A stretch of DNA of 60,383 bases from Treponema sp. (GTDB taxonomy: Bacteria > Spirochaetota > Spirochaetia > Treponematales > Breznakiellaceae): the NCBI GenBank assembly GCA_009788065.1, contig WQSF01000006.1:1-60383 (forward strand), given 5' to 3'. Positions within the stretch are counted from its first letter, which is position 1; each line of letters opens with the position of its first letter. The notes beneath the pieces were generated by a model, which did no database searches, was not told the origin of the DNA, and saw only the letters and a program-made list of their open reading frames with translations. Made by a program: the position numbers and the translations under genes. Of this stretch, positions 17,560 to 60,383 are shown in pieces.

Positions 17560-18154
17560 AAAATTCTTCTATCTTTCTTTGTAAATCGTCAAATGATTCT
17601 GTACATATTAAGTCAGAGCAGTCTTTTTTAATTTGTTCGGGGGCACGGAACAGACAGCCGCCGTCCGCTTCGCGGATCATCGCGAGGTCGTTAAATGAAT
17701 CGCCGGCGGCGAAAACGCGCATATTCATTGATTTAAACGCTTTAACAGCCTCGCGTTTACCGTTTTGCTGGCGAAGACGGTAGCCTGTCACTGTCCCGTC
17801 TTTGGCGATTTCCAATGTGTTGCAAAAAAGGCTTGGATAAGAAAGTTTCGCCATAAGAGGTTTTGCGAATTGTTCAAAAGTGTCGGAAAGGATTACGAGT
17901 TGAAAATTTTCGCGCAAGGCGTTCGCAAATTCCAGCGCTCCCGAAAGGGGCTCCATGCCTGAAATAACACGCTTAATGTCCGCAAGTTTTAAATTATTTT
18001 TCTTTAATATGTCGATGCGGAAATTCATCAGTTTATCGTAATCGGGTTCATCCCTTGTTGTACGGCGCAGCTCTCCAATGCCTGTTGCTTCGGAGAATGC
18101 GATCCAGATTTCAGGGACAAGTACACCTTCAAGGTCAAGACACACCAAGTTCAT
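17546..18154 (-). CDS. thrH: Phosphoserine phosphatase / homoserine phosphotransferase (ThrH type)
   Basis: This 202-residue HAD-family enzyme resembles ThrH, which dephosphorylates phosphoserine and can transfer the phosphate to homoserine. Motif I is CLDLEGVLVPE (residues 5-15) with the ThrH-type Glu-Gly rather than Asp-Gly-Thr. Motif II is the Ser in VILSDTF (about 90-96) and motif III/IV is AAGDSFNDLAMI (about 149-160). It supports serine and possibly threonine synthesis in the cytoplasm. It is divergent from birA with only 20 bp between the start codons, and its extended -10 TGTTATTAT ends 6 bases before the ATG, predicting a leaderless message. The 3' end overlaps convergent era by 14 bp. 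Confidence 0.88.
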   Translation of the reverse strand: MNLVCLDLEGVLVPEIWIAFSEATGIGELRRTTRDEPDYDKLMNFRIDILKKNNLKLADIKRVISGMEPLSGALEFANALRENFQLVILSDTFEQFAKPLMAKLSYPSLFCNTLEIAKDGTVTGYRLRQQNGKREAVKAFKSMNMRVFAAGDSFNDLAMIREADGGCLFRAPEQIKKDCSDLICTESFDDLQRKIEEFFICL

Positions 18155-18174
18155 GCTGGTATAATAACACAGGC
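18155..18174. promoter_or_regulatory. 20-bp bidirectional promoter between thrH and birA
   Basis: The whole gap between the divergent start codons is 20 bp. On the plus strand TGG-TATAAT (18160-18165) is an extended -10 for birA. On the minus strand TGT-TATTAT (18166-18161) is an extended -10 for thrH. The two -10 boxes are nearly the same base pairs, so polymerase can probably occupy only one direction at a time, and both messages should start at or within 3 bases of the start codon. Confidence 0.65.
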
Positions 18175-18951
18175 ATGAAAAAGTTAGAAGCGCATAATCC
18201 GTTTTCCGCGCCTGTTTATCATGAAGAAACGGTTATCAGCACCATGGATGTGTCGCGTAAATTGGCGGCTGAAGGCGGGACGCATGGAACTGTAATTACA
18301 TCTGATTTTCAAGAAGCAGGGCGCGGGCGTATCCGGGATCGGCTGTGGGAAATGGACAGGGGAGCGAGTTTGCCTTTCACTATTCTTCTTCGTTACTCAT
18401 GTATTGAAGAAATTCCTGTAGCTCTGACTTTGCGCGCAGGGCTGGCAGTTTCTCTTGCAATCGAGGATTTTGCGCCGTCATTGCAGGGTAAGATCAAGAT
18501 TAAATGGCCTAATGACATATTGATTGAATCAAAAAAAACGGCAGGGATTTTATGCGAAGCCGAAAGCGGGAATGTGTATTTAGGGATTGGGATTAACATG
18601 TCGCAAAATAATTTTTCCTCGCATCTTCAGGATAAAGCGACCAGCATAGTAATCGCCGCCGGTAAATCTGTTTGTAAGGAAGATCGTTTTTCTTTATTGG
18701 AAAAAATACTTTTAAAACTCCATGAAGAATTGGAAAATAATAAAGCAGACTGGAAATCCCGTTTGGAACAGCGGCTTTTTAAACTGCGCGAAGAAGTAAC
18801 ATTTTTTGAAGGAGCCGCAGACCGCCAAAAAGAAATAAAAGGGTTTATTTCAGGAATCGGAGATAAAGGAGAGCTGTTAATTAAAAGCGAGAGTGATGCA
18901 GAAGCAACGCCTTATTTCTCAGGAGAAATTAGCTTTAGTTCAATAATATAA
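18175..18951 (+). CDS. birA: Biotin--[acetyl-CoA-carboxylase] ligase, monofunctional
   Basis: BirA attaches biotin to carboxylase carrier proteins through biotinyl-AMP. This 258-residue form has the catalytic domain (ISTMDVSRKL; EAGRGRIRDRLW, the biotin-binding GRGR-type loop; KWPNDI, with the conserved Lys; GIGINMSQNNF) and a short C-terminal SH3-like domain. The N-terminal helix-turn-helix of E. coli BirA is absent, so it is a class I ligase without repressor function. The ATG at 18175 begins the conserved part (MKKLEAHNPF); the reading frame is open further upstream, but that would overlap thrH. The -10 box TATAAT ends 9 bases before this ATG, with no Shine-Dalgarno site. Confidence 0.92.
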   Translation: MKKLEAHNPFSAPVYHEETVISTMDVSRKLAAEGGTHGTVITSDFQEAGRGRIRDRLWEMDRGASLPFTILLRYSCIEEIPVALTLRAGLAVSLAIEDFAPSLQGKIKIKWPNDILIESKKTAGILCEAESGNVYLGIGINMSQNNFSSHLQDKATSIVIAAGKSVCKEDRFSLLEKILLKLHEELENNKADWKSRLEQRLFKLREEVTFFEGAADRQKEIKGFISGIGDKGELLIKSESDAEATPYFSGEISFSSII

Positions 18952-18976
18952 AAATAATACGGTAATAAAGGTAAAA

Positions 18977-19285
18977 TTACTTTTTACCTTTAAAACCAGC
19001 TTTTTGGCTCCATGCGTTTTCTATTTTAACCTTCTCAGCTTTGGTTATATTGGCTGTTTTGGTTTTTGCGGCAGGCGCGCCTGTTGGTATTTTTTTTAGG
19101 CGCGGCGCAGGAAGTTTGTCGCATATTTCCTGGAGTCTGTGCGCCACCATATCGTACTGCCCTGCAAGAAAAATATCGCTTGAACTCTGGAGCGCAAGAT
19201 TTTTGTACTCCCTGATCTGTCTTACAATTTCGTCCCTGTCTTTGCAGTTTTTAAATTTGTTTACTTCAGTTTCTACATTTATCAT
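18977..19285 (-). CDS. Small charged protein, unknown function
   Basis: I do not recognise this 102-residue protein. It is hydrophilic, with a predicted helical N-terminal half (about 1-62) and a Lys/Ala/Pro-rich middle linker (about 63-85). The C-terminus is basic (AWSQKAGFKGKK). There is no signal peptide or membrane segment, so it is cytoplasmic. Expression signals are excellent: GGAGAGG lies before the ATG, and an upstream promoter is close to consensus. That argues for a real and possibly abundant protein. It is convergent with birA (25 bp between the stop codons). Confidence 0.65.
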   Translation of the reverse strand: MINVETEVNKFKNCKDRDEIVRQIREYKNLALQSSSDIFLAGQYDMVAHRLQEICDKLPAPRLKKIPTGAPAAKTKTANITKAEKVKIENAWSQKAGFKGKK

Positions 19286-19324
19286 TTTTTCACCCTCTCC
19301 TATAAATGTTATAACCCGTGAAAA

Positions 19325-19352
19325 ATTATACCATAACCAGATTAAATGTCAA
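19325..19352 (-). promoter_or_regulatory. Near-consensus sigma70 promoter for the 18977-19285 gene
   Basis: On the minus strand TTGACA (19352-19347), a 16-bp spacer and an extended -10 TGG-TATAAT (19330-19325) predict a start near 19318. The leader of about 33 bases carries the Shine-Dalgarno site GGAGAGG. This is among the strongest promoters in the window. Confidence 0.75.
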
Positions 19353-19422
19353 TAAGCTTTTATACGGAAACTCCTTCGCCGGGGTAACCGCTCCTCGACA
19401 TAATTCTTATATCATAAAGTTC

Positions 19423-20334: not shown

Positions 20335-20384
20335 TCAGACCCGCTTCTCACAACATAAGAGATTAAGAACTTCGTTTATAAAAG

Positions 20385-21203: not shown

Positions 21204-21223
21204 AATTTACCTCCTTGTGATAT

Positions 21224-23743: not shown

Positions 23744-24016
23744 ACTGTTAAATGCATACCTTACATATTAATTATGTCCGCTTTTCCCGCATATTTCAAG
23801 GGAAAAGACGGCTTTTCGTACGGATTTACATTGTTTTAACGATATTGTCGTTAGATTATCATATGCAGTAACGGCTATGTAAGAGAAAAAGGGTGTATTT
23901 CCGTCATTGATTCATGGTTCCTGTTATTTGCCCAGCCGCTCATGAAGATGCTGTATAGATCGATTTTTTATTTTGAATATGTTATAATCACATAATACTA
24001 TTAACGAGGTGTATTT
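23744..24016. promoter_or_regulatory. Intergenic region between hybrid kinase and kdgK
   Basis: This 273-bp gap separates two divergent genes. It holds a perfect inverted repeat, TAACGA-tattg-TCGTTA (23837-23853), a good candidate operator. A -10 box TATAAT (23983-23988) with a poor -35 serves kdgK, whose leader carries the Shine-Dalgarno site GAGGTG. On the other side, TATGCA ends 9 bases before the kinase ATG. No small gene is recognised. Confidence 0.45.
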
Positions 24017-25126: not shown

Positions 25127-25129
25127 AGA

Positions 25130-27283: not shown

Positions 27284-27315
27284 TGACCGTTTCTCTTTAT
27301 AAAAAGTATTACGGA

Positions 27316-30300: not shown

Positions 30301-31158
30301 CGGAAACACTTCACCTTGACTGTCCTGGTGCAGCCACTCAGATGTAATTGTTTCGCCTGTTGACATAACGCGCTTTAAAAGTTCCGTTGCCTTTTCAATT
30401 GTTTTTTCTCCGCTTTCCTGTATATCAGGCGAGAAACTGTAAAAATTCTCGATATAATTTTCTTTTGTGGTCTTGCACATTTTTAATATTTCTTCATTGC
30501 AGTCAATAACATTAATATTTTCATCAAAAATTGTAAGTCCAAACGGTGTGGATTTAATAATAGCCTGATAAAATTTGTGCGCGGCTTTTAATTCAACGTC
30601 CATTTGGGCGCGTATAATAGCGTTTGCGCACAGGAACGCCGCGGAACGCATCATTTCGGCGCATTCATCGTCAAAATAATGTTCTCTATGATTATCGCTG
30701 AATATTACAAAACCCCAGAATACGTTTTTTAAAAAAATCGGCGTAATATATACCGATACTGCGCCGTGTTTAATTAACAATTCCCCTTCCGGCAAATGTC
30801 TGGCAGGGCCGTTCAAGGATTCTCCTGTCGGAAGTATTTTTTCCCATTTTGGAGCGTTTTTTATATATGATAAGTTTTCCAATTCGCTGAGCGGCGGCGT
30901 TGTGCCTCCTGATTGCTTATCCCAGCGGTATACCTGCGACGCGTAAAGACCGTCAGGTTTTATCTCATTGCGCCAGATATTTAATCTGTCTATATCGACC
31001 GCTTCCGCAATTAACGCGATACCGCTGGTCATCATTTTTTCGAATTTATCGGATGTGTTTGAAAGGAAAATCGCCGACATCTTGTTAAGCGTGTCAGCCA
31101 TTTTCTTGCTGCGCTCCAGTGTTTCCATCTTGTCAGTATTATTCTTTAATTTCATCAT
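27316..31158 (-). CDS. Soluble multi-sensor hybrid histidine kinase (GAF-PAS-PAS-GAF-PAS-HK-REC-REC)
   Basis: This 1280-residue kinase has no transmembrane helix. Sensor modules in order are GAF-like (about 20-190), PAS (about 205-325), PAS (about 330-450), a second GAF-like (about 460-640) and a third PAS-like (about 655-770). The last contains CPFCPC and other Cys/His residues that could bind metal or sense redox. HisKA with His779, a HATPase domain ([18 protein letters not shown]) and two receivers ([10 protein letters not shown] and [11 protein letters not shown]) follow. The kinase core is nearly the same as in the two neighbouring Cache kinases, so the same signalling core has been joined to a cytoplasmic sensor set. 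A -10 box TATAGT ends 6 bases before the ATG (possible leaderless start). Confidence 0.9.
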
Positions 31159-31301
31159 AATAGTACTATAATTATCGGTTTAATTGGTACTAAAATTCGA
31201 AATTTTAAAATAAAAACCATTATTTTCCGATCTAAAATGGCGTTTTTTATTAATAAATGATTATATTTCTTAAGAAATGGCGGAATATAATAAATTAAAT
31301 T

Positions 31302-32747: not shown

Positions 32748-32776
32748 TTGTATATTTTAACATATTAGCTTAAATT
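32748..32776 (+). promoter_or_regulatory. Promoter of the cyclase-like gene, leaderless
   Basis: TTGTAT (32748-32753), a 17-bp spacer and TAAATT (32771-32776) place the transcription start at about 32783, on the ATG at 32782. No Shine-Dalgarno site is present. Confidence 0.5.
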
Positions 32777-32781
32777 TAAAT

Positions 32782-34962
32782 ATGCCCGCGCGCGTTTCAT
32801 TTAAGATTTCGCTTTTAATGTTTCTCGGCAGTCTTATTTTCGTCGTTGGAGCGGCTTTTTTGCTGAGTTATCTGTTGTCAGGTCCAAGGCTCGGAGCGCA
32901 TTATGATTTTCTTATAAAATATAAAAAAAACGCCGTATCAAACGAAATTTTTGTTATCGAGACAGACGAATATATCGAAGGAAGCGATTTTTACACAGTT
33001 CTTATGACTCTTACAGAAATGGAAGCGTCAAATCTGATTCTGTCAGGCAGGCTTTCCCCTTCGGCAACTCCGATTACTTTAACCGAAGCGGATGTCCGCC
33101 GCCGGTTTACCGATGAATACAATCTTGTGGGCGCGAACATCCGCAATTTGTTTGAAGGCATCAGGATGGGGTATGTAACGCCTCTGGATGCGCCTGTTTA
33201 TGTTGAGCAGGTTGTAGAATCGGCGGAACAGGGCAGGGATCGTCTTATTACTACTTTAATCGACAGGGACGAAGACCTGCTGCGCTCCGTATCGGTTTTC
33301 GGCAATTATATTGACGGGTATACAAAACCGCAGCTTGATAAGGACGGAAAGCTCAGGCGGGCGAAGCCCATCGATTCTGAGAATAATATTGAACATCCCG
33401 TATACGCAAATCTGAAACACCGTTACACCGTTTCAAGGATCGAAACTTCAGGAAGAAAGAAAATATTATGGCTTAGAAGCCATGACGGCAAAGATTTGGA
33501 TTTAACTCTTGACAGCGAAAGTAATATTATCTCTCCGTGGAATGCCGGTTTCCGCAGTGTAAATATCGATCTTTTCAGAATGTACGAAGATTCCTCCAAC
33601 GCCATGCTTGAAGCGCTGGCTTTGGCAAACGAATTAAAAATATTTTCTGATATACCGCCCGATCAAATTCCGCTTTTCCTCGGCGAATACGCGCAAACTC
33701 TTCTGGATGAACTTTTAAAGACTCCAAGCGTTGATAACCGTTACGCGTGGATATCGGCGCGTAACAATTATTTCAGAAGCCTTGAAGCGTTTTTTAACAG
33801 TACCATGGAAGAGGATTTAATAAGCAGATACGAAGAAATAATCGCCGATACGGATTCATCTAACAAAGAAGAGCTTGCGTTCCTTATCAACGCAAAGAAT
33901 GAGTTAATAGAAGTGTTTATGATGTTTAATGACGCGTACGGCGAATTGTCTTCATGCCATTCATATTTTAAAAAAGAGCTTCCAATGTCGCTTTGCATTA
34001 TAGGTCCGCGTATAAACGCGCAGTATAATGCCATTCTTGCCAATTCTTTAATAACAGGAAATCATATAAAACCTTTTGATGAAGTTTACGCGCTTTTATT
34101 CGCAATCGCCGCGTCTTTGGTGATATTGGTTATACTTGTTTTTCTGCGCCCTGTTATTATTTTGATTGCTGGAATATTCTCATGTTTTCTTTGTGCGGCT
34201 TTGTGCGGCGTTTTTTTTATTTTTTTCTCGTATTGGATCGATCCTTTAATCGCTCTTGGCTCGTCTCTTGCCGCCTGTCTTGCGCTGTTTTTCAGTAAGA
34301 GTTTGTACCTGAGTTACAGAGCGCGCAGTTTCCGCGCCGCTTACAGAACGGCGGTTTCCAAAGATCATCTCAGAAAACTTATTAACTGGGGAAGACCCGG
34401 TCTGTCGGAAGTAAATGCGACTTACGCCGCAATTATCGCGATTAAGGACACCGGAATTTTTAATAAGGAAGAGAAGGATAGTTCCAAAGAAGCCGGAAAG
34501 ATGAAAAGAGCTTTTTATACGCTTGCAAAAAAGATATTATTTAATTCGGGCGCCGTTATCGCTGGTTATGAAGGAGATACAATACTCGCCTGTTTCGGCT
34601 CTCCTCTTGAAATCCAACCTAAATTAACAACTTATAAATGGACAGACGACGGACAGCCGCTTGCAAAAAGTTACCATCCTTCGGATAAAGCGTGTCTTCT
34701 TGTAAGACAAATATTAAAAAATGAAAAAATTGCATGGCGTTTCGGAATAGATTACGGGCTTTGTTCATTTTCATGGTCGCCTGAAACAGGGTTTACCGTA
34801 AGCGGACAGCCTGCTGTACACGCCAGAAACCTTGTGTTAAAAACCGTAAGATGGCGCGCAAGAGCGCTTATTTCTGACAATGTACGGGAAAAAATAAATC
34901 TGGACGGATCAAAGATGAAAACACTTCCGGGGCAGACTTCTGTTTTTGAAATACTGCCTTAA
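32782..34962 (+). CDS. Membrane protein with class III nucleotidyl-cyclase-like domain
   Basis: This 726-residue protein has an N-terminal transmembrane helix (about 8-32), a large extracytoplasmic region (about 35-430) of unknown fold, two to three hydrophobic helices (about 434-510) and a cytoplasmic C-terminal domain (about 540-726). That last domain resembles adenylate/guanylate cyclases: AAIIAIKDTGIF aligns with the first metal-Asp strand, GDTILACFGSP with the second, and WRFGIDYGLCSFSW with the GIxxG segment. However, the usual V-N-x-A-x-R helix reads AVHARNL, so the transition-state Asn and Arg seem altered. It may be a degenerate or regulatory cyclase. The promoter suggests a leaderless message. 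It is divergent from uxaC and convergent with the lipoprotein at 34963. Confidence 0.65.
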   Translation: MPARVSFKISLLMFLGSLIFVVGAAFLLSYLLSGPRLGAHYDFLIKYKKNAVSNEIFVIETDEYIEGSDFYTVLMTLTEMEASNLILSGRLSPSATPITLTEADVRRRFTDEYNLVGANIRNLFEGIRMGYVTPLDAPVYVEQVVESAEQGRDRLITTLIDRDEDLLRSVSVFGNYIDGYTKPQLDKDGKLRRAKPIDSENNIEHPVYANLKHRYTVSRIETSGRKKILWLRSHDGKDLDLTLDSESNIISPWNAGFRSVNIDLFRMYEDSSNAMLEALALANELKIFSDIPPDQIPLFLGEYAQTLLDELLKTPSVDNRYAWISARNNYFRSLEAFFNSTMEEDLISRYEEIIADTDSSNKEELAFLINAKNELIEVFMMFNDAYGELSSCHSYFKKELPMSLCIIGPRINAQYNAILANSLITGNHIKPFDEVYALLFAIAASLVILVILVFLRPVIILIAGIFSCFLCAALCGVFFIFFSYWIDPLIALGSSLAACLALFFSKSLYLSYRARSFRAAYRTAVSKDHLRKLINWGRPGLSEVNATYAAIIAIKDTGIFNKEEKDSSKEAGKMKRAFYTLAKKILFNSGAVIAGYEGDTILACFGSPLEIQPKLTTYKWTDDGQPLAKSYHPSDKACLLVRQILKNEKIAWRFGIDYGLCSFSWSPETGFTVSGQPAVHARNLVLKTVRWRARALISDNVREKINLDGSKMKTLPGQTSVFEILP

Positions 34963-36946: not shown

Positions 36947-36996
36947 TCTTTATATCTTTACAAGGTTTTGTCAAGATATTGATAATTTGATATACT
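36947..36996. promoter_or_regulatory. Divergent promoter pair with overlapping -35 boxes
   Basis: TTGTCAA at 36968-36974 serves both directions. Plus strand: TTGTCA (36968-36973), 17 bp, TATACT (36991-36996), start at about 37003, the GTG of rsmE. Minus strand: TTGACA (36974-36969), 16 bp, TAAAGA (36952-36947), start near 36940, two bases before the ATG at 36938. The two polymerases should exclude each other. Confidence 0.6.
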
Positions 36997-37002
36997 TTTA
37001 CG

Positions 37003-37752
37003 GTGAATATTATTTTATTTGAAGAACATGAATTGGGACGCAATCTTTCAAGGCGCGATGCAAGAACAATTCATCTTTTAAAAGTTTTACATAAAAAACC
37101 CGGTGAAGAATTCGAAGCCGGTATCCTCGGCGGGATGCGCGGAACGGGCAGGATTGAAAAGATCAATATTGACGGTTCGATATTTGTCACCATTACAGCA
37201 ACCGAGCCGCCTGCGCCGCGCCTGCGTTTAAGGATGGTAGTTTCATTTGTGCGCCCAATCCAGCTTAGGCGAATTTTCAGGGATCTGTCCAATATCGGAG
37301 TATCGGCAATCGATCTTACTGGAACTGACATGGGTGAAAAAAGCTACAGGGACACAAAACTTTTAATGGACGGCGGCTCCCATGCCGCTCTTGTAGAAGG
37401 CGCCGTCCAATCCCGCGACACTATGATTCCGTCTTTAAACGTTTATGAAAATCTCGGCGTCTGGTTAAAAGAACGCCACTGGGAAAAAACCGATATGTGC
37501 GCGTCCCGCATCCCGCTCCTTCTTGCAATGGACAATGTAAGAGCGGAAGGGTCTTTTTTTAACCTGACTCCTTCAAGCCGCCCTGCTGTAATCGCGGTAG
37601 GTCCCGAGAGAGGATGGTCGGACAGAGAGCGTGAAATGTTTGAACAGGCAGGATTTTTACGCTTGTCCATCGGAGACCGCGCTCTTCGCACGGAAACAGC
37701 CTGTGTCGCCGCCGCCGCGCTTGCTATGGAAAAAATTCTGGATACAGTTTAA
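37003..37752 (+). CDS. rsmE: 16S rRNA (uracil1498-N3)-methyltransferase RsmE
   Basis: RsmE methylates U1498 of 16S rRNA using S-adenosylmethionine. The 249-residue protein has the small N-terminal PUA-like domain (about 1-68; RDARTIHLLKVLHKKPGEEF) and the SPOUT methyltransferase domain (about 70-249). Conserved features are LVVSF-type strand MVVSFVRPIQLRRIFRDLSNIG shortened to PIQLRRIFRDLS, a VGPERGWSDRE knot motif (about 204-214) and LSIGDRALRTETA (about 222-234). The start is GTG at 37003, exactly at the predicted transcription start, with no upstream Shine-Dalgarno site. The zincin gene follows 11 bp downstream with a good AAAGGAG site, so the two are probably cotranscribed. Confidence 0.94.
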   Translation: MNIILFEEHELGRNLSRRDARTIHLLKVLHKKPGEEFEAGILGGMRGTGRIEKINIDGSIFVTITATEPPAPRLRLRMVVSFVRPIQLRRIFRDLSNIGVSAIDLTGTDMGEKSYRDTKLLMDGGSHAALVEGAVQSRDTMIPSLNVYENLGVWLKERHWEKTDMCASRIPLLLAMDNVRAEGSFFNLTPSSRPAVIAVGPERGWSDREREMFEQAGFLRLSIGDRALRTETACVAAAALAMEKILDTV

Positions 37753-38701: not shown

Positions 38702-38730
38702 TTGATTTTTCTTAAAAAAACCGCTATCAT
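38702..38730 (+). promoter_or_regulatory. Promoter of the cysteine desulfurase gene, near-leaderless
   Basis: TTGATT (38702-38707), a 17-bp spacer and TATCAT (38725-38730) predict a start near 38737, two bases before the ATG at 38739. No Shine-Dalgarno site lies upstream. Confidence 0.55.
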
Positions 38731-38738
38731 TATAAAAA

Positions 38739-39905
38739 ATGAGAAAAGTGTATATCGATTACAACGCGACCACCCCCCTAAGACCGGAAGTAAAATCCGC
38801 GATGATAGAAGATTTGGATATATTCGGTAATGCATCAAGTATGCATGCTTCAGGAAGGTTCGCTCATGCCAGGGTAGAGCAGGCAAGAGACTCGATTAAA
38901 AATCTTATAGGAGCAAAAAACGGTACAATTGTGTTTACTTCAGGCGGCTCTGAAGCTAATAATACGGTCTTTCAAACAATGCGCGCTCTTATAGATTCTG
39001 CATCTTCTGCCCGCGATGAATTTATTACATCAGCAATCGAGCACCCGTGCGTAATGAACTCCGCGTTAAATCTAAAAAAAGCCGGTTTTAAGGTAACGAT
39101 TCTACCTGTCGATGAATACGGCAAACTAAAAATGGACGTATTGGAAAAAACGTTAAACGAAAAAACACTTTTTGTTTCTGTAATGGCGGCTAATAACGAG
39201 ATTGGCACTGTACAGGATATTCAAAAAATAACCGCGCTTGTCAAAGGCGCGGGCGCTTTCATGCATATAGACGCTGTGCAGGCTGTCGGTAAAATACCTC
39301 TCAATGCAGAAGAGCTAAACGCTGACTATATAACAATTTCTGCGCATAAGATCTACGGTCCCAAGGGGGTGGGTGCGCTTTATGTAAAAAAAGGCGCTGC
39401 GCTGTTTCCGCTGGTGGTCGGCGGACATCAGGAGGACGGATTAAGAGCCGGAACCTACAATAACACCGGTATCTTAGGTTTCGGGAAAGCGGCGGAACTT
39501 TCCGCAGGCGAAGTGTTAAGATACGGTAGCGAGATTGCCTCATTGCGCGACAGACTGCGCGCCGGGCTTTGCGATAAAATTCCGCATATCAAAATAAACG
39601 GACATCCTGTTGATGTTCTTCCAAATACGCTTAATGTTTCTTTCCCAGGAGCTGAAGGTGAATCGATTCTTCTTTCTATGGATTTACAGGGAATTGAAGC
39701 GTCTACAGGTTCCGCCTGCGCGTCAGGAAGTCTTGAGCCTTCTCATGTGCTTATGGCGACAGGGGTAGGGCCTGAGCTTGCGCACGGTTCGATACGGTTC
39801 AGCCTGGGGTGGGGTATTACAGAAAGCGATATTAATTATATAATAGAAACACTTCCGCCTATAATCGCGCGGCTGAGGTCAATGTCAACATTATCAGATT
39901 GTTAA
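38739..39905 (+). CDS. Cysteine desulfurase (NifS/IscS family)
   Basis: This 388-residue PLP enzyme releases sulfur from cysteine as a protein persulfide for Fe-S cluster assembly. The N-terminus YIDYNATTPLRPEV is typical of the family. The PLP lysine lies in ISAHKIYGPKGVGAL (His-Lys near residues 201-202), and the cofactor site also shows VMAANNEIGTVQ and HIDAVQAVGK. The catalytic Cys is in STGSACASGSLEPSH (about 322-336), the class I (IscS/NifS) loop. The NifU-type scaffold gene follows 13 bp downstream. The two form the main Fe-S assembly unit of the window, which also encodes users of such clusters (ferredoxin, MiaB and the RNA methyltransferase). The choice between nifS and iscS names is not clear. 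Confidence 0.95.
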   Translation: MRKVYIDYNATTPLRPEVKSAMIEDLDIFGNASSMHASGRFAHARVEQARDSIKNLIGAKNGTIVFTSGGSEANNTVFQTMRALIDSASSARDEFITSAIEHPCVMNSALNLKKAGFKVTILPVDEYGKLKMDVLEKTLNEKTLFVSVMAANNEIGTVQDIQKITALVKGAGAFMHIDAVQAVGKIPLNAEELNADYITISAHKIYGPKGVGALYVKKGAALFPLVVGGHQEDGLRAGTYNNTGILGFGKAAELSAGEVLRYGSEIASLRDRLRAGLCDKIPHIKINGHPVDVLPNTLNVSFPGAEGESILLSMDLQGIEASTGSACASGSLEPSHVLMATGVGPELAHGSIRFSLGWGITESDINYIIETLPPIIARLRSMSTLSDC

Positions 39906-42146: not shown

Positions 42147-42185
42147 TTGACAATTTGATAATACCGTATTACAATCTGTAATATG
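42147..42185 (+). promoter_or_regulatory. VapBC promoter with palindromic operator
   Basis: TTGACA (42147-42152), 17 bp and TACAAT (42170-42175) place the start at about 42182, one base before the ATG at 42183. A perfect inverted repeat, TATTAC-aatct-GTAATA (42167-42183), covers the -10 box and the first base of the start codon. It is the expected position for autorepression by the ribbon-helix-helix antitoxin. Confidence 0.7.
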
Positions 42186-42895: not shown

Positions 42896-44584
42896 CTATC
42901 TGAGCGACGCTAGTTCTTTATTAGCTTGTCTTCTTGCAATCTGCGGCTGATGCGGCTGAGTAAGCATATTTAAAATTTTTATTCCAAGTTCGCTGAGAGG
43001 TGGTCCTGAAAAACGGCATAAAGCGCCTGTTGCTGACGCAATCGCGGTTAATATATGTTCGTCTTTTACTGTGATATCAAAAACTAATAAATGAAAAAAT
43101 GTTTGAAGCGCGGAGCCTTGTGGATCTACTCCAATATCTCCGATAGCTGTTATTGCTGCGGCTCTGATAATCGGCTCGTTATCTGTTTTAAAAATATTTA
43201 CCAGCCACGGGATTGTTTCCAGAGAACCAATTTTTCCAAGAAGACAAATGGCGTTAAGCCGCATTTGTATATGCTCCCTTCCTGCTGAAACCGTCAGTAA
43301 AAATGATGTCCACTCAGATTCGTTTTCCCCGACCGCGCCGCGGTTTATCGCTTTGGAAATCTGATCAAGTTTCGCTCTTCTTTCCTGCAAATTATAAGGA
43401 ATTTCAAGAGCGTCGGAAGCCCGTGGACGCCCCATTCCGTAAGACCCCTGCGGTTTCGGTCCGTAAAGAGAATTTTCTTCTCGCAGAACGCGATCTTCTA
43501 TTTTATATGCGTAAAGTATCCAGTCAATTCCGCCTGAATACAACACTCCGTCGTTTCCAAAAGCCGGTATTGACGCCGCGTTCTGCAGGAATGTAAACCA
43601 GAGTCTTTTGCCGTCAGGTGAAAAGCATGACGCGCCGTTTCTGGAAAGGATATAAATTCCTCTTTCATCAAAAAACATTTCCGCTTCTATGTCGGGACTG
43701 TTACCCGAACCAGCCATTTCTCTTATGTGAGTGCTGCCGGTCCAAAGGATTTTTTTTTCATTCGCGGATAAAAATACTATTCTTCCGTCATTCATGACTG
43801 CCGCTATATTGTTTCCCTTTCCTGTTGCCGCAAGCGGATTGGACGGCAGTTTTGGCAATAGAGACACATGAACATCGCTTTGCGCGGAAATAAACCATTC
43901 TTCGGCGGCGCCAAGAATTTCCATTGCGCCGTCTTTATATACAACTAAAATATTTTTCTGTTCTATCGATACTATGAAAGCAGGTGTGTTTGATATTGTC
44001 CATCTGCTGACATTTCCAAAAGGATCGACGCGGCAGATAACCATGTTTTCAAGAGCGAATAATATTCCGCCGTTCAGATCAAGTTTCGGCTCGATTAAAA
44101 ATGATGTTTCGAATGTTTGCGTCCACAGCAGGTTTCCCGAAGCTGTAAAACATAATATTTTTTTATCGGCAGGCGCGAATAATCTGCCGTCCCACCCGAT
44201 TACTACGCGGGCGCTTAACGCGCCGCCGATCTCCCGCCGCCACAATTCGCGTCCCGCACGGTTTACTGCGATTAATGTTCCGGTTGTCCTGGCGATGTAC
44301 GACGTGCCCTCCCGCGAGCGGGATACATACGGGCTTATCTTTCCTCTTGCCGAATAATTCCACATTGAAGTGCCGGCGGTAGAATACGCGCGGATATTTC
44401 CTCCGTCGAGAGCAACGACTGCGGACTGCGCCTGAACTGAAGGCAATGATACAACAGCGCCGCCGAGCGCCTGCCGCCACAGCGGATCATTTGTTACCAA
44501 ACCTTGTTCGCGAACATCGCTTTGAGCAAACACCGCGGATACGGCGACGAAGAATAATACGCACATTTTGTTAATTTGACGCAT
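42896..44584 (-). CDS. Exported PQQ-type beta-propeller and HEAT-repeat protein
   Basis: This 562-residue protein has a signal peptide (about 1-20; ends VFAQ). Residues about 35-370 show repeated blades of a PQQ/WD-like beta-propeller (AVVALDGGNIRAYSTAGTSMW, LIAVNRAGRELWRREIGG, ILCFTASGNLLWTQTF, ASCFSPDGKRLWF). The C-terminal 150 residues hold HEAT repeats (AICLLGKIGSLETIPWLVNI, AAAITAIGDIGVDPQG). The HEAT part resembles the separate HEAT protein at 49858-50562. A scaffold role in the periplasm is likely. An extended -10 TGG-TATAAT (44597-44592) ends 7 bases before the ATG, predicting a leaderless message. It is divergent from the RNA methyltransferase with a 56-bp gap. Confidence 0.78.
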   Translation of the reverse strand: MRQINKMCVLFFVAVSAVFAQSDVREQGLVTNDPLWRQALGGAVVSLPSVQAQSAVVALDGGNIRAYSTAGTSMWNYSARGKISPYVSRSREGTSYIARTTGTLIAVNRAGRELWRREIGGALSARVVIGWDGRLFAPADKKILCFTASGNLLWTQTFETSFLIEPKLDLNGGILFALENMVICRVDPFGNVSRWTISNTPAFIVSIEQKNILVVYKDGAMEILGAAEEWFISAQSDVHVSLLPKLPSNPLAATGKGNNIAAVMNDGRIVFLSANEKKILWTGSTHIREMAGSGNSPDIEAEMFFDERGIYILSRNGASCFSPDGKRLWFTFLQNAASIPAFGNDGVLYSGGIDWILYAYKIEDRVLREENSLYGPKPQGSYGMGRPRASDALEIPYNLQERRAKLDQISKAINRGAVGENESEWTSFLLTVSAGREHIQMRLNAICLLGKIGSLETIPWLVNIFKTDNEPIIRAAAITAIGDIGVDPQGSALQTFFHLLVFDITVKDEHILTAIASATGALCRFSGPPLSELGIKILNMLTQPHQPQIARRQANKELASLR

Positions 44585-44640
44585 TGGTTTAATTATACCA
44601 CATTATAAGATTTATTTTTTTAACTGTGATATAAGTAATT

Positions 44641-45840
44641 ATGGCAGTTGGAGATGTCTTCAAATTACAACTGGAAAATATTACTTCAAGCGGCGACGCT
44701 CTAGGGCGTTTCGAAGGTAAACCTGTTTTTATAGAAATGGGAGCGCCCGATGAAACTGTTCTATGCCGTATTACACAAGAGCATAACACGTGGGCGAGAG
44801 CGGAACTGCTGGAAATTATTGATCCTTCACCGGTTCGCCTGAATCCCGTCTGCGCTTTTTACGGCAGATGCGGCGGGTGTTCCCTTCAGCATATTGATTA
44901 TAAAGCGCAGCTTGATTCCAAGGTTTCCATTTTAAAAGAAATGTTTTTAAGGATTGGGCGGATTGACGCGCCTGAGCCTGAAGTATTTGCTTCGCCGCCT
45001 TATACATACCGCAACAGGATGCAGTTTCATTGTCTAAGGCAGAAGGCAAAGAGCGAACATGATTTAAAATTTGGATTGATGGGCAGGCGCAGCGGTGAAA
45101 TTATAGCGGTTTCTGACTGTCCCATTGCGGTTCATGGGATAAGAGAACTACTACAATCGAGTTCAAGCGGAAACGCTAAAGGCGCGGCGGATGATGATAA
45201 ACGGATTACTTTACCTGTAGAGAAAGATCGTTTTACGGTGTTTTTTAAAGACAATGTGTTTTTGAATGAAGGCGGTGTTCAAAGAGAGAAAATAAAACTG
45301 CTTGATAAAAAATTAACAATAGACGCAGGCGTGTTTTTTCAAAGCAATTGTTTTATGCTGGAAAAATTGATTATGGAATTGCAAAAAATCGCAGAAGGCG
45401 CGGAACGCGCTTTACCAGCGGCGGATTTATACAGCGGCGCGGGCACTTTTGCCCTTTTTCTTGGCGATATGTTTCCAAAGATTGTTCTTGCGGAGGAGAA
45501 TAAAATAGCCGTCAGTCTGGCGCGTGAAAATTTAAGAGGCATTAACGCCGAATTTTTTGCATTGCGCGATACAGAATGGCAAAAAAATCTGCTGAGCTGC
45601 GCAGGCGCTTTTGGTTTCGCTGTGGCTGATCCGCCGAGAGCGGGGCTTGCGCCTAAACTTGCCGCTGTCCTGGCGCAAAACGGTCCGCCTGCGCTTGCGT
45701 ATGTTTCTTGCGATCCTGCGGCCCTCGCGCGGGATTCAAAAGTTTTAATTAATGGCGGATATCAGCTAAAAGAGTTAAAATTTTTTGATTTTTACCCGCA
45801 AACCGCGCATATCGAAAGTCTGGCTGTTTTTAAAAAGTAA
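44641..45840 (+). CDS. 23S rRNA (uracil-5-)-methyltransferase, RlmD/TrmA family
   Basis: This 399-residue enzyme adds a methyl group to C5 of uridine in rRNA or tRNA. It begins with a TRAM domain (about 5-60). A 4Fe-4S cluster site of the RlmD/RumA type is visible in FYGRCGGCSLQH plus upstream and downstream Cys. The methyltransferase fold has DLYSGAGTFALFL (about 262-274), the DPPRAGL catalytic loop (about 330-336) and YVSCDPAALARD (about 352-363), whose Cys is the nucleophile. The Cys-rich region points to the rRNA enzyme rather than TrmA. A -10 box TATAAG (44630-44635) ends 5 bases before the ATG, with no Shine-Dalgarno site. It is likely transcribed alone. Confidence 0.9.
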   Translation: MAVGDVFKLQLENITSSGDALGRFEGKPVFIEMGAPDETVLCRITQEHNTWARAELLEIIDPSPVRLNPVCAFYGRCGGCSLQHIDYKAQLDSKVSILKEMFLRIGRIDAPEPEVFASPPYTYRNRMQFHCLRQKAKSEHDLKFGLMGRRSGEIIAVSDCPIAVHGIRELLQSSSSGNAKGAADDDKRITLPVEKDRFTVFFKDNVFLNEGGVQREKIKLLDKKLTIDAGVFFQSNCFMLEKLIMELQKIAEGAERALPAADLYSGAGTFALFLGDMFPKIVLAEENKIAVSLARENLRGINAEFFALRDTEWQKNLLSCAGAFGFAVADPPRAGLAPKLAAVLAQNGPPALAYVSCDPAALARDSKVLINGGYQLKELKFFDFYPQTAHIESLAVFKK

Positions 45841-45870: not shown

Positions 45871-45876
45871 TATAAT
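45871..45876 (+). promoter_or_regulatory. -10 box of the esterase lipoprotein gene, leaderless
   Basis: A consensus TATAAT ends 6 bases before the ATG at 45883, so transcription should begin on the start codon. No good -35 or Shine-Dalgarno site is visible. Confidence 0.5.
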
Positions 45877-45882
45877 ATTAAC

Positions 45883-46833
45883 ATGAAAATAAATAATTTT
45901 ATTTTTTTTATTACAGTCACAGGATTAATATTAACATCATGCACGACCATGAGAGATAACTTTCTTAAAAATTACCGCGAAAAAGAAGACGCACAGCATC
46001 ATCGTATACTGTCGGCAAGAACATTGCCTGGAAATATTACCGCAATAACAGATATTCCTTATACTGACAGCGGGCATAGAGGGCATTTACTGGATATATA
46101 TTATCCTGACGATATGGAAGGTCCCTTTCCTGTAGTTGTAAATATTCATGGAGGCGGATTTATTTGCGAAAATAAAGAAAATATAAAACAATATTGTTAC
46201 AATATAGTAAGAGACGGTTTTATCGTATTTAACATTAATTACCGGCTTGTAACAGAAGGCATTAAAGTTCCGGGACAGATACCGGATGTTATTAATGCGT
46301 TGGATTGGATCGGAAACAATATCGGGCAATATCCGGCAGACGCCGGTAAGGTGTATCTTATCGGTCATTCAGCCGGCGGTTTTTTAGCGGCAATTACCGC
46401 TCTTGTTTCTGAAAGCGAAAGACTGCAAAATGTTTTTAATGTGAATAAGCCGAATATAAAAATAAAAGCTTTGGCGGTTAATTGCAGTTATATTGAAATG
46501 GCGCGTAAGACAATAAAGTGGCGGGGTTTTAGATGGGCGATATACGAAAAAGGATATAAAAAACAGGAATATTATAAAAATCTGATAATAAAAGATTTGC
46601 CAGAAGTAAAATTATTTCCGCCTGTATTTGTAATAAGCAATTCCGATGATAATCTTAATTTTATGTCGTTTCATATTGTTGATATTTTAAAAGAAAACAA
46701 TTTAGAACATTTTTTCTTGTTCATGAAGGGAGAGGAACGAAAACTAAGGCACTGCTTTGACACATTTAATCCGGATCGTGATGAAAGTATTAAAATACGC
46801 AGGAAAATGCTAAAATATTTTTTACAGTTTTAA
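45883..46833 (+). CDS. Lipoprotein alpha/beta hydrolase (esterase/lipase-like)
   Basis: This 316-residue protein begins with a lipoprotein signal (lipobox LILTSC, Cys near residue 20), so it should be anchored in the envelope. The hydrolase fold is complete: the HGGGF oxyanion motif of the hormone-sensitive-lipase family (about 90-94), nucleophile elbow IGHSAGGFLA (Ser near 164), the Asp of ISNSDDNLNF and the His of LRHCFD. It probably removes acyl or acetyl groups from carbohydrate or lipid substrates. The gene is more AT-rich than its neighbours, which hints at transfer or relaxed selection. It is followed 41 bp downstream by a second, unrelated hydrolase gene with its own promoter. Confidence 0.8.
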   Translation: MKINNFIFFITVTGLILTSCTTMRDNFLKNYREKEDAQHHRILSARTLPGNITAITDIPYTDSGHRGHLLDIYYPDDMEGPFPVVVNIHGGGFICENKENIKQYCYNIVRDGFIVFNINYRLVTEGIKVPGQIPDVINALDWIGNNIGQYPADAGKVYLIGHSAGGFLAAITALVSESERLQNVFNVNKPNIKIKALAVNCSYIEMARKTIKWRGFRWAIYEKGYKKQEYYKNLIIKDLPEVKLFPPVFVISNSDDNLNFMSFHIVDILKENNLEHFFLFMKGEERKLRHCFDTFNPDRDESIKIRRKMLKYFLQF

Positions 46834-46840: not shown

Positions 46841-46869
46841 TTGCCACAAACCCGGAAAAAGGTTAGAAT
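46841..46869 (+). promoter_or_regulatory. Promoter of the lysophospholipase-like gene, leaderless
   Basis: TTGCCA (46841-46846), a 17-bp spacer and TAGAAT (46864-46869) place the start at about 46876, on the ATG at 46875. No Shine-Dalgarno site is visible. Confidence 0.6.
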
Positions 46870-46874
46870 AACCT

Positions 46875-47831
46875 ATGGTTCAAACTGAGGCCTATTTCCA
46901 GACCCATGACGGAACCAAGCTGTACCTGTACCGCTGGTCTCCCGAACATGAACCGCCAAAAGCCATACTTCATATAATCCACGGCATGGCGGAACACGCT
47001 CTTCGTTATAAAAGACTTGCGGAAAAACTTACGCAAGCCGGAATAGAAATATGGGCGGCCGATCAGCGCGGGCACGGTAAAACCGCCGATCTTGGGTTAA
47101 ACGATCCCGGAAAAGGCGGGCTTCTTGGGCATTGCGGCGACGCTGACAGTATTGTCCGCGTTACTGCCGATATTCATTCAATTAATATGGAAATTAGCAA
47201 GATTAGAGCGAAGATACCACTTTTTCTTTTAGGACACTCATGGGGATCTTTTATAGCGCAAAATTACATCGAATATTCAGACGATTTAATAATAAACGGA
47301 TGTATTTTATCGGGAACCAAAGGGCCCGGTGATTTTATGGTTAAAGCGGGAGTCCCTTTAATGATAATAATAGCCGCGCTGACAGGGCAAAGAAAAAATT
47401 CCCGCGCCGCTAAGTCGATGGCGGACGGAGCTTACAATAAGCCTTTTAAACCGAACCGCACGGTGTTTGACTGGCTAAGCCGCGACGAGAATGAAGTTGA
47501 TAAATACATTTCCGATCCGTTATGCGGATTTAATTGTTCTTCGGGTTTTTACAGAGACCTTGTAAAATTGCTTTATAACATTCACCGCTCTGACGCGTTG
47601 GCAAGGATAGACCGTTCTTTACCGGTGTATGTTTTTTCAGGAAGCGAAGATCCCGTCGGAGATATGGGTAAATCGCCCACAGCTCTGGTTAATGCTTACC
47701 GGAATGTGGGAATAAATGATTGCGAGTTTGTGCTGTATCCTGGCGCCAGGCATGAGACATTGAATGAAACCAACCGTGAAGAGGTGCAGGATAACCTTCT
47801 GTCATGGATATGTAAGCATATAAGTGCTTAA
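46875..47831 (+). CDS. Monoacylglycerol lipase / lysophospholipase-like hydrolase
   Basis: This 318-residue soluble hydrolase resembles the lysophospholipase (PldB, MGLL) group. It has IIHGMAEHALRYKRLA (about 36-51), the family's DQRGHGKT (about 63-70), nucleophile elbow LLGHSWGSFIA (Ser near 118), Asp in FSGSEDPVGD and His in YPGARHETLNE (about 294-304). It has no signal peptide, so it should act on monoacylglycerols or lysophospholipids in the cytoplasm. The -10 box lies 5 bases before the ATG. It is 41 bp downstream of the lipoprotein hydrolase, and the poly(A)-polymerase-type gene begins 7 bp after its stop codon, so read-through into that gene is likely. Confidence 0.85.
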   Translation: MVQTEAYFQTHDGTKLYLYRWSPEHEPPKAILHIIHGMAEHALRYKRLAEKLTQAGIEIWAADQRGHGKTADLGLNDPGKGGLLGHCGDADSIVRVTADIHSINMEISKIRAKIPLFLLGHSWGSFIAQNYIEYSDDLIINGCILSGTKGPGDFMVKAGVPLMIIIAALTGQRKNSRAAKSMADGAYNKPFKPNRTVFDWLSRDENEVDKYISDPLCGFNCSSGFYRDLVKLLYNIHRSDALARIDRSLPVYVFSGSEDPVGDMGKSPTALVNAYRNVGINDCEFVLYPGARHETLNETNREEVQDNLLSWICKHISA

Positions 47832-50573: not shown

Positions 50574-51140
50574 TTAATTGATTATTGTCCACGAATCGTT
50601 TATTTTTTCAAGATCATACAGACGAAGACTTATATCTTCGCCCGCGCTGTTCTTGGTATTCGTGAACGCTTTTACCCTGTTCATGCTTATAAATTCTATA
50701 TCGTCAACGCGCAGATTCGCTCTCGAAGGAACGACTACATAATCAAAATAATCCTGAGCTGTTTTTAATGTAATTCTTCTGGTCTTCATCGCGGGCTGTT
50801 CTGATAAATTCCGAAGATTTTCCGCAGAGGAAATCTCTGCAAAATATTCAGACGATAAATTCGCCTTCCAATCCTCGAATTTTCTTTCCCTGATTATTCT
50901 GTTCAAAGCTTCGATGAACCGGCGTACTTCATCTCTTGTGGTATCGTAATACTGCTGTGAGATCTTTGTGGGATCAAAAATATCGCCCTGCTGCGCGGTA
51001 TTACCCGCCGCAGTTGTCTGCCCGGTTCCGGTATCTGTTTTTACCGCTTCAGATGTGGTTTTGCATGATAAGGAAAAAAACAACGCCGCTGCGATTAACG
51101 TAAAAAGAGACAGAACCGATATTAGTTTCTTAAATCCCAT
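50574..51140 (-). CDS. Lipoprotein of unknown function
   Basis: This 188-residue lipoprotein has a signal ending FFSLSC (Cys near residue 26), followed by a Thr/Ala/Gln-rich linker (about 30-55). The folded part (about 60-188) has alternating helix and strand, with WKANLSSEYFAEISS and YVVVP-type strands, somewhat like the NTF2-like or nuclear-transport-factor lipoproteins of spirochaetes; I cannot place it firmly. The ATG at 51140 is 15 codons inside the longest frame and gives a proper signal. TTGACA (51175-51170), 17 bp and TACAGT (51152-51147) on the minus strand put the transcript start on this ATG. HEAT and P-loop/Asp23 genes follow. Confidence 0.62.
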   Translation of the reverse strand: MGFKKLISVLSLFTLIAAALFFSLSCKTTSEAVKTDTGTGQTTAAGNTAQQGDIFDPTKISQQYYDTTRDEVRRFIEALNRIIRERKFEDWKANLSSEYFAEISSAENLRNLSEQPAMKTRRITLKTAQDYFDYVVVPSRANLRVDDIEFISMNRVKAFTNTKNSAGEDISLRLYDLEKINDSWTIIN

Positions 51141-51146
51141 ACTGTT

Positions 51147-51175
51147 ACTGTATATCAAAATTACATTTTTGTCAA
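51147..51175 (-). promoter_or_regulatory. Leaderless promoter of the 51140-50574 lipoprotein operon
   Basis: On the minus strand TTGACA (51175-51170), a 17-bp spacer and TACAGT (51152-51147) predict a start exactly on the ATG at 51140; six bases separate box and ATG. Confidence 0.65.
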
Positions 51176-51231
51176 TATTTTCCATATTATACTCTCTTGA
51201 TTATCGTATTAATTTTTTATATGCTTGAGCC

Positions 51232-51726
51232 ATGAACAGGAAGGCAGCATTTCCGGGTTCTTTTGACCCCCCCACATCCGGGCACATCAACATAATCCGC
51301 CGCGCAGCGTCTATTTTTGACGAATTAGTGGTGATTGTTGCTGAAAACCGGCAAAAAAAGTATCTTTTTTCGGCTGAAGAACGGGCTTCCATGGTCCGTG
51401 AACTGGTAACAGACCGTAAAAATGTCACCGTTACCACCTGCGACCACTTAATTGTGGACTATTTAAAGAAAACGAACATCAATTTGCTTGTTCGCGGGGT
51501 TCGCGGAGTAGAGGATTTCTCTTATGAATTCGAACTTTCGATGATGAACAGAACCCTTGACCCTCAAATTGAGACGATTTTTATGACAACCGACCCTGAA
51601 TTTTTCGTTCTTAGATCCTCGTCGATTAAAGAACTCGCTTCTTTTAACGGGAATCTTCATGGAATGGTGCCTCCGCTGGTTGCCAAAGCCTTGAAAGAAA
51701 AGTATGATAAGATAAGAGATCGATAG
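51232..51726 (+). CDS. coaD: Phosphopantetheine adenylyltransferase
   Basis: CoaD transfers an AMP group from ATP to 4'-phosphopantetheine, the fourth step of coenzyme A synthesis. The 164-residue length fits the hexameric bacterial enzyme. The N-terminal motif [19 protein letters not shown] (about 6-24) carries the Ser/Thr-x-G-H nucleotidyl site. [15 protein letters not shown] (about 85-99) and the ISSS/RSSS-type motif [12 protein letters not shown] (about 128-139) are also present. The weak promoter TTGATT/TATATG ends 8 bases before the ATG and no Shine-Dalgarno site is visible. It is divergent from the lipoprotein operon. rpmF and acpP lie downstream with a separate promoter. Confidence 0.93.
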
Positions 51727-56179: not shown

Positions 56180-56188
56180 GGAGATTGA

Positions 56189-57055: not shown

Positions 57056-57057
57056 TT

Positions 57058-58785: not shown

Positions 58786-58846
58786 ACCTTCGGTTTATAT
58801 TTATTTATACTGCGCGGTTATTCACCCGCGCGAAAGTGAGGTTAAA

Positions 58847-59209: not shown

Positions 59210-60219
59210 GCAGATTTTTCGCTGTCATGCTAGCGGTTATATTATGCTCATTCTTTCCGTTTACGGTTTTTGCGCAGACAGGTCTTTCACTTGAAGCGGA
59301 AATAAAAAATCTGGAAACAGCCGCTGTCGGGAAGGATATTCCGCCTGCCGGGAGACACGATACTCTTGTACGTCTTGCGCGTCTTCGCCAGCTCTCCGGC
59401 AATATCGAAGGCGCGGCAAGAAGCTGGTTCGAAGCTGCAGGTGCGATCCCGGGCAGAGTAGACGATGACGCTCTTTTATCCTGCGCGTACTGTCTTGCCG
59501 CGATGGGCGAATGGGAAAGAGCGGCTACAGCGCTCGAACCGTTGTTGGCAAAATACGCGCGGGCGCGTTTTTTAAACACAAGCATAAAGGCGATTAAAAC
59601 AGGCGATCTGTCAGAACTCGCCGCGCTCGCCGACAATGCGGAATATTCTCAATTAAAACACGAGATTCTTTTTATATTATGGAAATTATCTGACGGCGCG
59701 CGCGCCGCGTTAACAACGGAAGAGTCTTCGCCTTTTCAATTAGGCGGCGGCGCTCAAATGTGGCGCCAGCGTTTAATTGCAGAATTCCCCCTGACAACCG
59801 AAGGCCGCCTGGCTGCGGCTGAAACATCTTCTTCAATCGCGATCCGTCTAAGCGCCTTCTGGCTTTTCGCAGGCGGTTTAGATTCACTGCCTCTCGCTGC
59901 CGCCCCGGCGCCTGGAAATATTCCGTCAGCGGCGCAACCGGCTTCTGTTACCAAAACGCCTCCTGTCGAACAGCCAAAAATAACGCCTGCTCCCGCCTTG
60001 GCTGCCTCTATTCGTTTTCAAACAGGTGTTTTTGGCCGTGAGTCAAACGCACAGGCGCAAATCACCAATCTTCAAAAAGCCGGTTTTACCGCGGCGATTG
60101 AACAGCGAAATGTAAACGGAAACCAAATGTGGGCGGTTACAGTTCCTGCCGGAGCGGATCAAACGAAAACTGCGGCCGCTCTGCGCTCCGCCGGGTTCGA
60201 TTCCTTCCTAATCAAATAG
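59206..60219 (+). CDS. Exported SPOR-domain protein with TPR-like region
   Basis: This 337-residue protein has a signal peptide (about 1-23; ends TVFAQ). The first half is helical with TPR-like features (LVRLARLRQLSGNIEGAARSW, CAYCLAAMGEWERAATALEP). A Pro/Ala-rich linker follows (about 228-265; APAPGNIPSAAQPASV). The C-terminal 70 or so residues form a SPOR domain (IRFQTGVFGRESNAQAQITNL, then LQKAGFTAAIEQRNVNGNQMW, WAVTVPAG and AALRSAGFDSFLI). SPOR domains bind peptidoglycan stripped of stem peptides at division sites, so a septal or cell-wall role is likely. The start overlaps the LapA-like gene by 4 bp. A perfect terminator overlaps its stop codon. Confidence 0.85.
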   Translation: MSRFFAVMLAVILCSFFPFTVFAQTGLSLEAEIKNLETAAVGKDIPPAGRHDTLVRLARLRQLSGNIEGAARSWFEAAGAIPGRVDDDALLSCAYCLAAMGEWERAATALEPLLAKYARARFLNTSIKAIKTGDLSELAALADNAEYSQLKHEILFILWKLSDGARAALTTEESSPFQLGGGAQMWRQRLIAEFPLTTEGRLAAAETSSSIAIRLSAFWLFAGGLDSLPLAAAPAPGNIPSAAQPASVTKTPPVEQPKITPAPALAASIRFQTGVFGRESNAQAQITNLQKAGFTAAIEQRNVNGNQMWAVTVPAGADQTKTAAALRSAGFDSFLIK

Positions 60220-60232
60220 TAGGAAGGATTTT
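60202..60232 (+). terminator. Rho-independent terminator after the SPOR gene
   Basis: TCCTTCCTA (60202-60210) and TAGGAAGGA (60220-60228) form a perfect 9-bp stem with a 9-base loop, followed by TTTTG. The stem begins inside the coding sequence, and the TAG stop codon (60217-60219) lies in the loop. Confidence 0.75.
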
Positions 60233-60272
60233 GCTGCAAACCATAGGGTTGGTAAAAAACATATCTCCCCTA

Positions 60273-60301
60273 TTGACATTTTATTTGGAAAAATGTAAAT
60301 T
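60273..60301 (+). promoter_or_regulatory. Consensus-like promoter for the truncated terminal gene
   Basis: TTGACA (60273-60278), a 17-bp spacer and TAAATT (60296-60301) predict a start near 60308, one base before the GTG at 60309. This is another apparent leaderless unit. Confidence 0.6.
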
Positions 60302-60308
60302 TATTATA

Positions 60309-60383
60309 GTGACAAGATTAAGCGCCATATTAGCCCAAATATCCCGTTTTCTTGCATCTGGATTAAACATACCCCCCCCCCCC
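60309..60383 (+). CDS. 5' fragment of an open reading frame, cut by the window end
   Basis: GTG at 60309 opens a frame that runs 25 codons to the end of the window without a stop: it begins MTRLSAILAQISRFLASGLN and ends in a Pro run encoded by the terminal C tract. A hydrophobic stretch near the N-terminus could be part of a signal or membrane segment, but it is too short to judge. Support comes mainly from the well-placed promoter, whose predicted start falls at this GTG. No family can be named. If the C tract is real, its length would set the reading frame downstream. Confidence 0.4.
   Translation, partial: MTRLSAILAQISRFLASGLNIPPPP
60372..60383 (+). repeat. Homopolymer C tract at the window end
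   Basis: Twelve consecutive C residues form the last bases. This may be a true poly-C/G tract at which assembly stopped, or an artefact of sequencing (poly-G read-through seen on the other strand). Nothing beyond it is visible. Confidence 0.6.

Follow-up and report, generated by a model that had tools for sequence, protein, structure and literature searches.

The 60,383-nucleotide contig of Treponema sp. analyzed here (WQSF01000006.1, family Breznakiellaceae; "the window" denotes this whole stretch) carries a series of gene starts at which a −10 box of the sigma70 type ends a few bases before the start codon, among them the starts of two closely spaced divergent genes, thrH and birA. The contig belongs to a genome (G000) of 2.14 Mb in 98 contigs that is 70% complete. 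By protein search, the closest among 80 related contigs come from metagenome genomes labeled "Treponema sp." (isolate codes such as Co191 and Emb289), with Breznakiella homolactica and Gracilinema caldarium more distant, and the isolate codes of these relatives indicate that the lineage probably originates from the termite gut. The gene names used below (thrH, birA, rsmE, vapB, vapC, coaD, nifS, uxaC, kdgK, folD, miaB, era and smpB) come from a first-pass annotation of the window or are our own assignments; no family search underlies them, and they are provisional.

The first-pass annotation had named 14 starts as having a −10 box ending 5 to 9 bases upstream and no Shine-Dalgarno (SD) site, and had proposed that many genes of this DNA make leaderless messages. 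Denoting by d the number of bases between the end of the −10 box and the start codon, we found a TANNNT box at 5 to 9 for 13 of the 14, the lone exception being 44641, whose box lacks the final T, and no SD 4-mer at any of them. The seven −35/−10 pairs it had quoted were all correct, each with a 17-bp spacer and 0 to 3 mismatches to TTGACA. Two further starts outside that list, 6361 on the minus strand and 51232 on the plus strand, fit the same pattern, both with a −35 at 17 bp (Table 1). Across 48 window starts (the 14 named and 34 that we picked from the list of open reading frames), a box at 5 to 9 was present in 15, none of which had an SD 4-mer; one was found in 18 of the 33 remaining starts, two of them at the unusual spacings of 2 and 14. 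A Fisher test of this exclusion of box and SD gave p = 3e-4, computed with 17/33 where a recount gives 18/33, and the exclusion is partly mechanical because both motifs sit on the same bases.

Table 1. Window starts with a near −10 box: positions, −35-spacer-−10 elements and box-to-start distances (d)
Feature	Coordinates	Strand	Elements and remarks
thrH-like gene, ATG 18154	17546..18166	-	TATTAT (18161-18166, minus strand, extended TG), d6; leaderless reading proposed
thrH-birA intergenic region, 20 bp	18155..18174	.	Palindromic TATTATA/TATAATA as putative −10 both ways (thrH d6, birA d9)
birA-like gene, ATG 18175	18160..18951	+	TATAAT (18160-18165), d9; predicted leader ~2-3 bases
rsmE-like gene, GTG start 37003	36968..37752	+	TTGTCA-17-TATACT, d6
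NifS-like gene 38739	38702..38741	+	TTGATT-17-TATCAT, d8; weaker orthologue footprint
vapB-like gene 42183	42147..42185	+	TTGACA-17-TACAAT, d7
Divergent pair 44584(-)/44641(+)	44584..44643	.	TATAAT d7 / TATAAG d5; 56 bp between
45883	45871..45885	+	TATAAT, d6; no −35
46875	46841..46877	+	TTGCCA-17-TAGAAT, d5
51140	51138..51175	-	TTGACA-17-TACAGT, d6
coaD-like gene 51232	51197..51234	+	TTGATT-17-TATGCT, d6; only P 0.51 in mixture model
6361	6359..6396	-	TTGTTA-17-TACATT, d6
2513	2511..2525	-	TATAAT, d6; −35 weak
31158	31156..31170	-	TATAGT, d6; −35 weak
32782	32748..32784	+	TTGTAT-17-TAAATT, d5; mixture model prefers overlapping box, P 0.67
60309, GTG fragment at window end	60273..60311	+	TTGACA-17-TAAATT, d7

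For the minus-strand frame at 51140-51191, an alternative start at 51185 opens a longer frame and has a TATAAT directly abutting it; the start at 51140 has a perfect −35.

Box-to-start distances were profiled over a genome sample of 40 stretches of 20 kb plus the window (860,383 bases), in which 689 genes were called with our own script; this uses codon scores and then an order-4 periodic model, and upstream motifs play no part in its choice of starts. Genes with enough upstream sequence were classed as operon-first when they had a divergent neighbor or a same-strand gap of at least 60 (n = 322) and as internal when the gap was below 25 (n = 241). The first-pass annotation had proposed this profile and held that a peak at 6 to 7 would support its claim. 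The observed peak was at exactly d6: TANNNT ended there in 37 of the 322 operon-first genes, where positions 12 to 45 averaged 14.3 each, and TANANT in 25 against 4.9 expected (Poisson p = 4e-7 and 1e-10, or 2e-5 and 4e-9 when corrected for 46 positions). Internal genes had no such peak (5 against 5.1 expected). At d6 the first T of the Pribnow-type box stands 12 bases before the start codon, which is the TA-led arrangement. A cruder first gene caller gave TANNNT at d6 in 36 of 291 operon-first genes against 12.9. With unambiguous starts only, the d6 box occurred in 7 of 37 operon-first genes (mean 1.65) and 1 of 72 internal genes under a looser setting, and in 5 of 14 operon-first genes against 0.71 under a stricter one. 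The unambiguous-start profile was too sparse in relatives other than G019 (6 of 33 against 1.79) and G021 (5 of 97 against 0.29). A pooled set of miaB-centered contigs from other spirochaetes, with peaks at 8, 11 and 13 besides 6, was dropped because the same locus was counted many times in it.

These boxes have the −35 partner of sigma70 promoters. TTGACA with at most two mismatches was found at a 17-bp spacer in 16 of 40 operon-first d6 boxes, whereas no other spacer between 8 and 29 had more than 4 (range 0-4; p = 2e-13). For boxes at 13 to 39 the rise at spacer 17 was milder (19 of 203, against 5 to 16 elsewhere), as expected of promoters with leaders. Orthologues of rsmE have an invariant TT at −35/−34 in 11 sequences. 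Defining a strong promoter as one with at most three mismatches in all, we found one at 5 to 8 upstream of 33 of 509 in-frame ATGs but only 2 of 245 out-of-frame ATGs from the same regions; at 12 to 15 there was no comparable contrast (12 of 509 in frame, 4 of 245 out of frame).

The share of such genes was estimated with an expectation-maximization (EM) mixture of three classes (SD, TA and none) and a movable start, using an order-4 intergenic background and decoy motifs; these replaced the order-0 background of a first EM, which had placed an A+T-rich "TA" class everywhere. Seeded with TATAAT, the model retained TATAAT with its top spacing weight at 6, and two of six other seeds (AATATT and ATTAAT) converged on TATAAT at spacing 6, the other four giving shifted or weaker forms. 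The TA posterior at 5 to 8 exceeded 0.8 (P>0.8) in 67 of the 322 operon-first genes (42 of 162 divergent and 25 of 160 same-strand genes), against 6, 15 and 7 for reversed, complemented and reverse-complemented decoy matrices. Only 1 of the 241 internal genes reached this level, so that the class is confined to first genes of transcription units. With the window excluded, the count was 58 of 291 (decoys 4-13). When the 60 upstream bases were simulated from the intergenic model in two draws, a motif learned freely gave 2 and 0 such genes, and the motif already learned gave 0 and 0. An SD 5-mer was found in none of the 67 genes, whereas 107 of the 255 others had one. The 96 genes with TA at 5 to 8 as their best assignment start with ATG (90), GTG (4) or TTG (2). 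Subtraction of the decoy counts (67 minus 6-15, of 322) leads to an estimated, model-dependent leaderless share of 16 to 19% of operon-first genes, or about 8% of the 689 called genes. A search for the 3′ end of 16S rRNA in 29 genomes found it in G019 and G022 only, and anti-SD status was deduced from the learned AGGAGG motif because our own genome yielded no 16S. The ribosomal protein bS21 was present in 25 of 29 genomes but not found in that of the window, which is 70% complete, and gave no lead; there was also a bS18 hit.

The same model was applied to other genomes. At P>0.8 it assigned 9 of 104 operon-first genes in G020 (decoys 0-3; internal 0/59), 10 of 184 in G021 (decoys 1-2; internal 0/35), 7 of 190 in G019 (decoys 0-2; internal 3/77) and 1 of 84 in G018 (decoys 0; internal 0/29). 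Two other families of the order thus showed the TA signal clearly; in G019 and G018 it was weak. Escherichia coli K-12 gave 0 of 125 (decoys 0; internal 0/59), and the EM yielded no TATAAT at spacing 6 there.

Orthologue footprints were compared gene by gene. For thrH, 30 loci were cut and one was dropped (its match began at residue 63), leaving 29 with the window; 23 of these genus sequences have the box at exactly d6, all 29 start with ATG and none contains an SD 5-mer. The alignment holds 1.6 bits at −12 against 0.1 to 0.3 bits at −5 to −2. For rsmE (20 other genus genomes, of 38 matched, plus the window), 19 of the 21 sequences have their box at exactly d6 and 20 of the 21 start with GTG; an SD 5-mer occurs in 0 of the 11 counted. 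This GTG is kept despite the leaderless appearance of the gene, ATG being usual in this gene class. For 44641 (10 relatives plus the window), the box is at 5 to 7 in 8 of 11, the window itself being a miss, and SD is found in 0 of 11. Outside the genus, rsmE upstream sequence was obtained from 9 of 11 genomes, with CATACT at 6 in G021 and G026 and TAGCAT at 6 in G023. In six nifS-like orthologues of 38739 (L256, L258, L260, L264, L266 and L268) the start has shifted to an ATG 12 bases upstream, with TANNNT 8 to 11 before it as judged by eye.

A search of 30 loci with both the thrH and the birA protein placed birA divergent from thrH at no more than 75 bp in 20 of them; in the other loci it lies farther away (2), on the same strand (2) or is lacking in the piece examined (6). 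All 20 close divergent loci have the thrH box at d6. The gap is exactly 20 bp, with the same TATTATA core, in nine of the 20, window included, and all nine pair TATTAT at d6 for thrH with TATAAT at d9 for birA, a symmetric −10. In this layout there is no space for a leader, and the −35 region of either gene falls within its neighbor.

On this evidence we consider it very probable that a substantial minority of operon-first genes is leaderless, being transcribed from promoters of the sigma70 type in which about 6 bases separate the −10 box from the start codon. The usual distance from −10 to +1 is 6 to 7 bases, and because of this step RNA polymerase would begin the transcript at the first base of the start codon or no more than about 3 bases from it, which would yield a leaderless mRNA. 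An SD of the AGGAGG type, mostly 4 to 7 bases before the start, serves operon-internal genes and many first genes instead. On leaderless messages, the ribosome with initiator tRNA and IF2 would engage the 5′-terminal start codon; IF2-dependent recognition of such a codon is given as the route of leaderless translation in one study (PMC10783764). The DNA strongly supports both proposals of the first-pass annotation, leaderless messages and the coexistence of two modes of initiation in the same genome, through the d6 peak, the −35 at 17, the restriction to operon-first genes, the absence of SD and the spacing that two genes conserve across the genus.

Several observations weigh against this reading. 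The evidence is DNA, from which 5′ ends and translation were deduced, and the starts were set by our own gene caller. With EM-chosen starts the −35 signal is blurred (spacer 17 in 15 of 52 d6 boxes, other spacers up to 7). When counted from the promoters, in-frame ATGs number 23 at 5 to 8 and 70 at 9 to 40, and out-of-frame ATGs 8 and 45; the strong-promoter distance histogram is noisy, though its in-frame maximum is at 6 (12). In the small samples of the nearest relatives the signal at P>0.8 is weak, both in G012 (5/82; decoys 0-2; internal 2/71) and in the genus contigs (6/126; decoys 0-3; internal 1/69); this argues against a uniform strength of the signal, though these samples are at most a quarter of our own. 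Distances in the nifS set (20 relatives plus the window) are scattered, at 6 to 9 in 11 of 21 and with SD in 2 of 21. Outside the genus, rsmE has no clear box in six of the nine genomes (G018, G019, where the start is uncertain, G020, G024, G027 and G028), and thrH of G018, from another family, carries GGAGG instead.

Alternatively, these genes could have longer leaders from a second promoter upstream, the near box being a minor or internal start, and multiple promoters per gene are common in bacteria. We regard this as improbable: in the nine genomes with the 20-bp thrH/birA gap a longer leader would begin inside the other gene, and neither the thrH nor the counted rsmE sequences offer an SD 5-mer for it to use. 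Still less probable is that the boxes are true promoters and translation begins at a later in-frame codon, leaving short leaders. Many thrH orthologues do contain a second in-frame start codon close by (ATG or TTG at +6, GTG at +9), but the ATG at position 0 is invariant with the box 6 bases from it in most, seven orthologues (L218, L226, L230, L233, L240, L241 and L242) have no other in-frame start over the following 12 bases, and all rsmE sequences but one have GTG at position 0. Chance, given that TANNNT is frequent near starts in A+T-rich intergenic DNA (at any given distance about 4% of operon-first starts have one, so that some cases with a −10 only could be accidental), may hold for single genes and is the least credible of the three, being refuted as a general account by the sharp single-distance peak, the single −35 spacer, the absence in internal genes and in E. 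coli and the conserved spacing in orthologues.

We somewhat favor a further proposal, that in part of the genus the 20-bp palindromic gap makes up the whole −10/start region for both thrH and birA, a divergent pair that would be leaderless or nearly so, with the −35 of each gene lying inside the other, and that polymerase binding one way would exclude the other; more broadly, leaderless expression, including that of the GTG-started rsmE, would be a stable, selected mode in this lineage and not a sporadic one. The symmetry suggests that one element serves both genes. Bidirectional promoters with a symmetric element driving divergent transcription are described in Salmonella and E. coli (PMC10268837; PMC12825309); what thrH-birA would add to these cases is that both of its coding genes are nearly leaderless and only 20 bp lie between them.

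The first-pass annotation was aware of no description of leaderless messages for this group. At the level of the phylum this does not hold, given work on Leptospira and Borrelia and the survey of Zheng et al. (2011); for Treponema and termite spirochaetes no description was found in the literature searched, which covered few subscription papers. The accessible parts of a T. pallidum transcriptome paper (PMC12223175) contain no mention of "leader", "untranslated" or "UTR". Of 18 spirochaete genomes, Zheng et al. predicted leaderless genes in 6, at an average of 3.9% of genes (1.8-6.9), compared with roughly 8% here by a different method; their TA-led genes resemble ours in the position of TANNNT, about 12 bp ahead of the start codon, in the lack of an SD and in a tie to operon position, and Treponema is not named in the available parts of the text (PMC3160421). 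In Leptospira interrogans, of the same phylum, differential RNA sequencing (dRNA-seq) mapped 5′ ends no more than 10 bases from the start for about 440 genes; the parts available report no common promoter motif but sigma54 sites, whereas here TATAAT stands out clearly and is often accompanied by a −35 at 17 bp (PMC5243855). Leaderless transcripts are frequent in Borrelia according to a paper on its ribosome. The same architecture, with the −10 region adjoining the open reading frames, has been studied experimentally in Deinococcus-Thermus, another phylum, where it concerns about 30% of open reading frames (PMC12340547).

Genome-scale and orthologue evidence indicates that leaderless initiation, for which actinobacteria and Deinococcus-Thermus are the best-known examples, is in regular use beside SD starts in an uncultured spirochaete lineage. 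Gene finders that assume an SD may misplace starts in it. The thrH and rsmE orthologue sets, where the majority of 20 to 30 species retain the 6-base spacing, offer test cases for the origin and upkeep of leaderless starts, and thrH-birA offers one for the minimal size of a two-way promoter.

Two other regions of the window stood out by eye. Positions 6592-16638 hold an open frame of 3348 codons; its start resembles a signal peptide, and its sequence is repetitive and adhesin-like. At 21224-31158 three large genes of sensor-kinase-like type, their ends receiver-like, lie close together, with a kdgK-like gene between the first and the second, and the three are probably paralogues.

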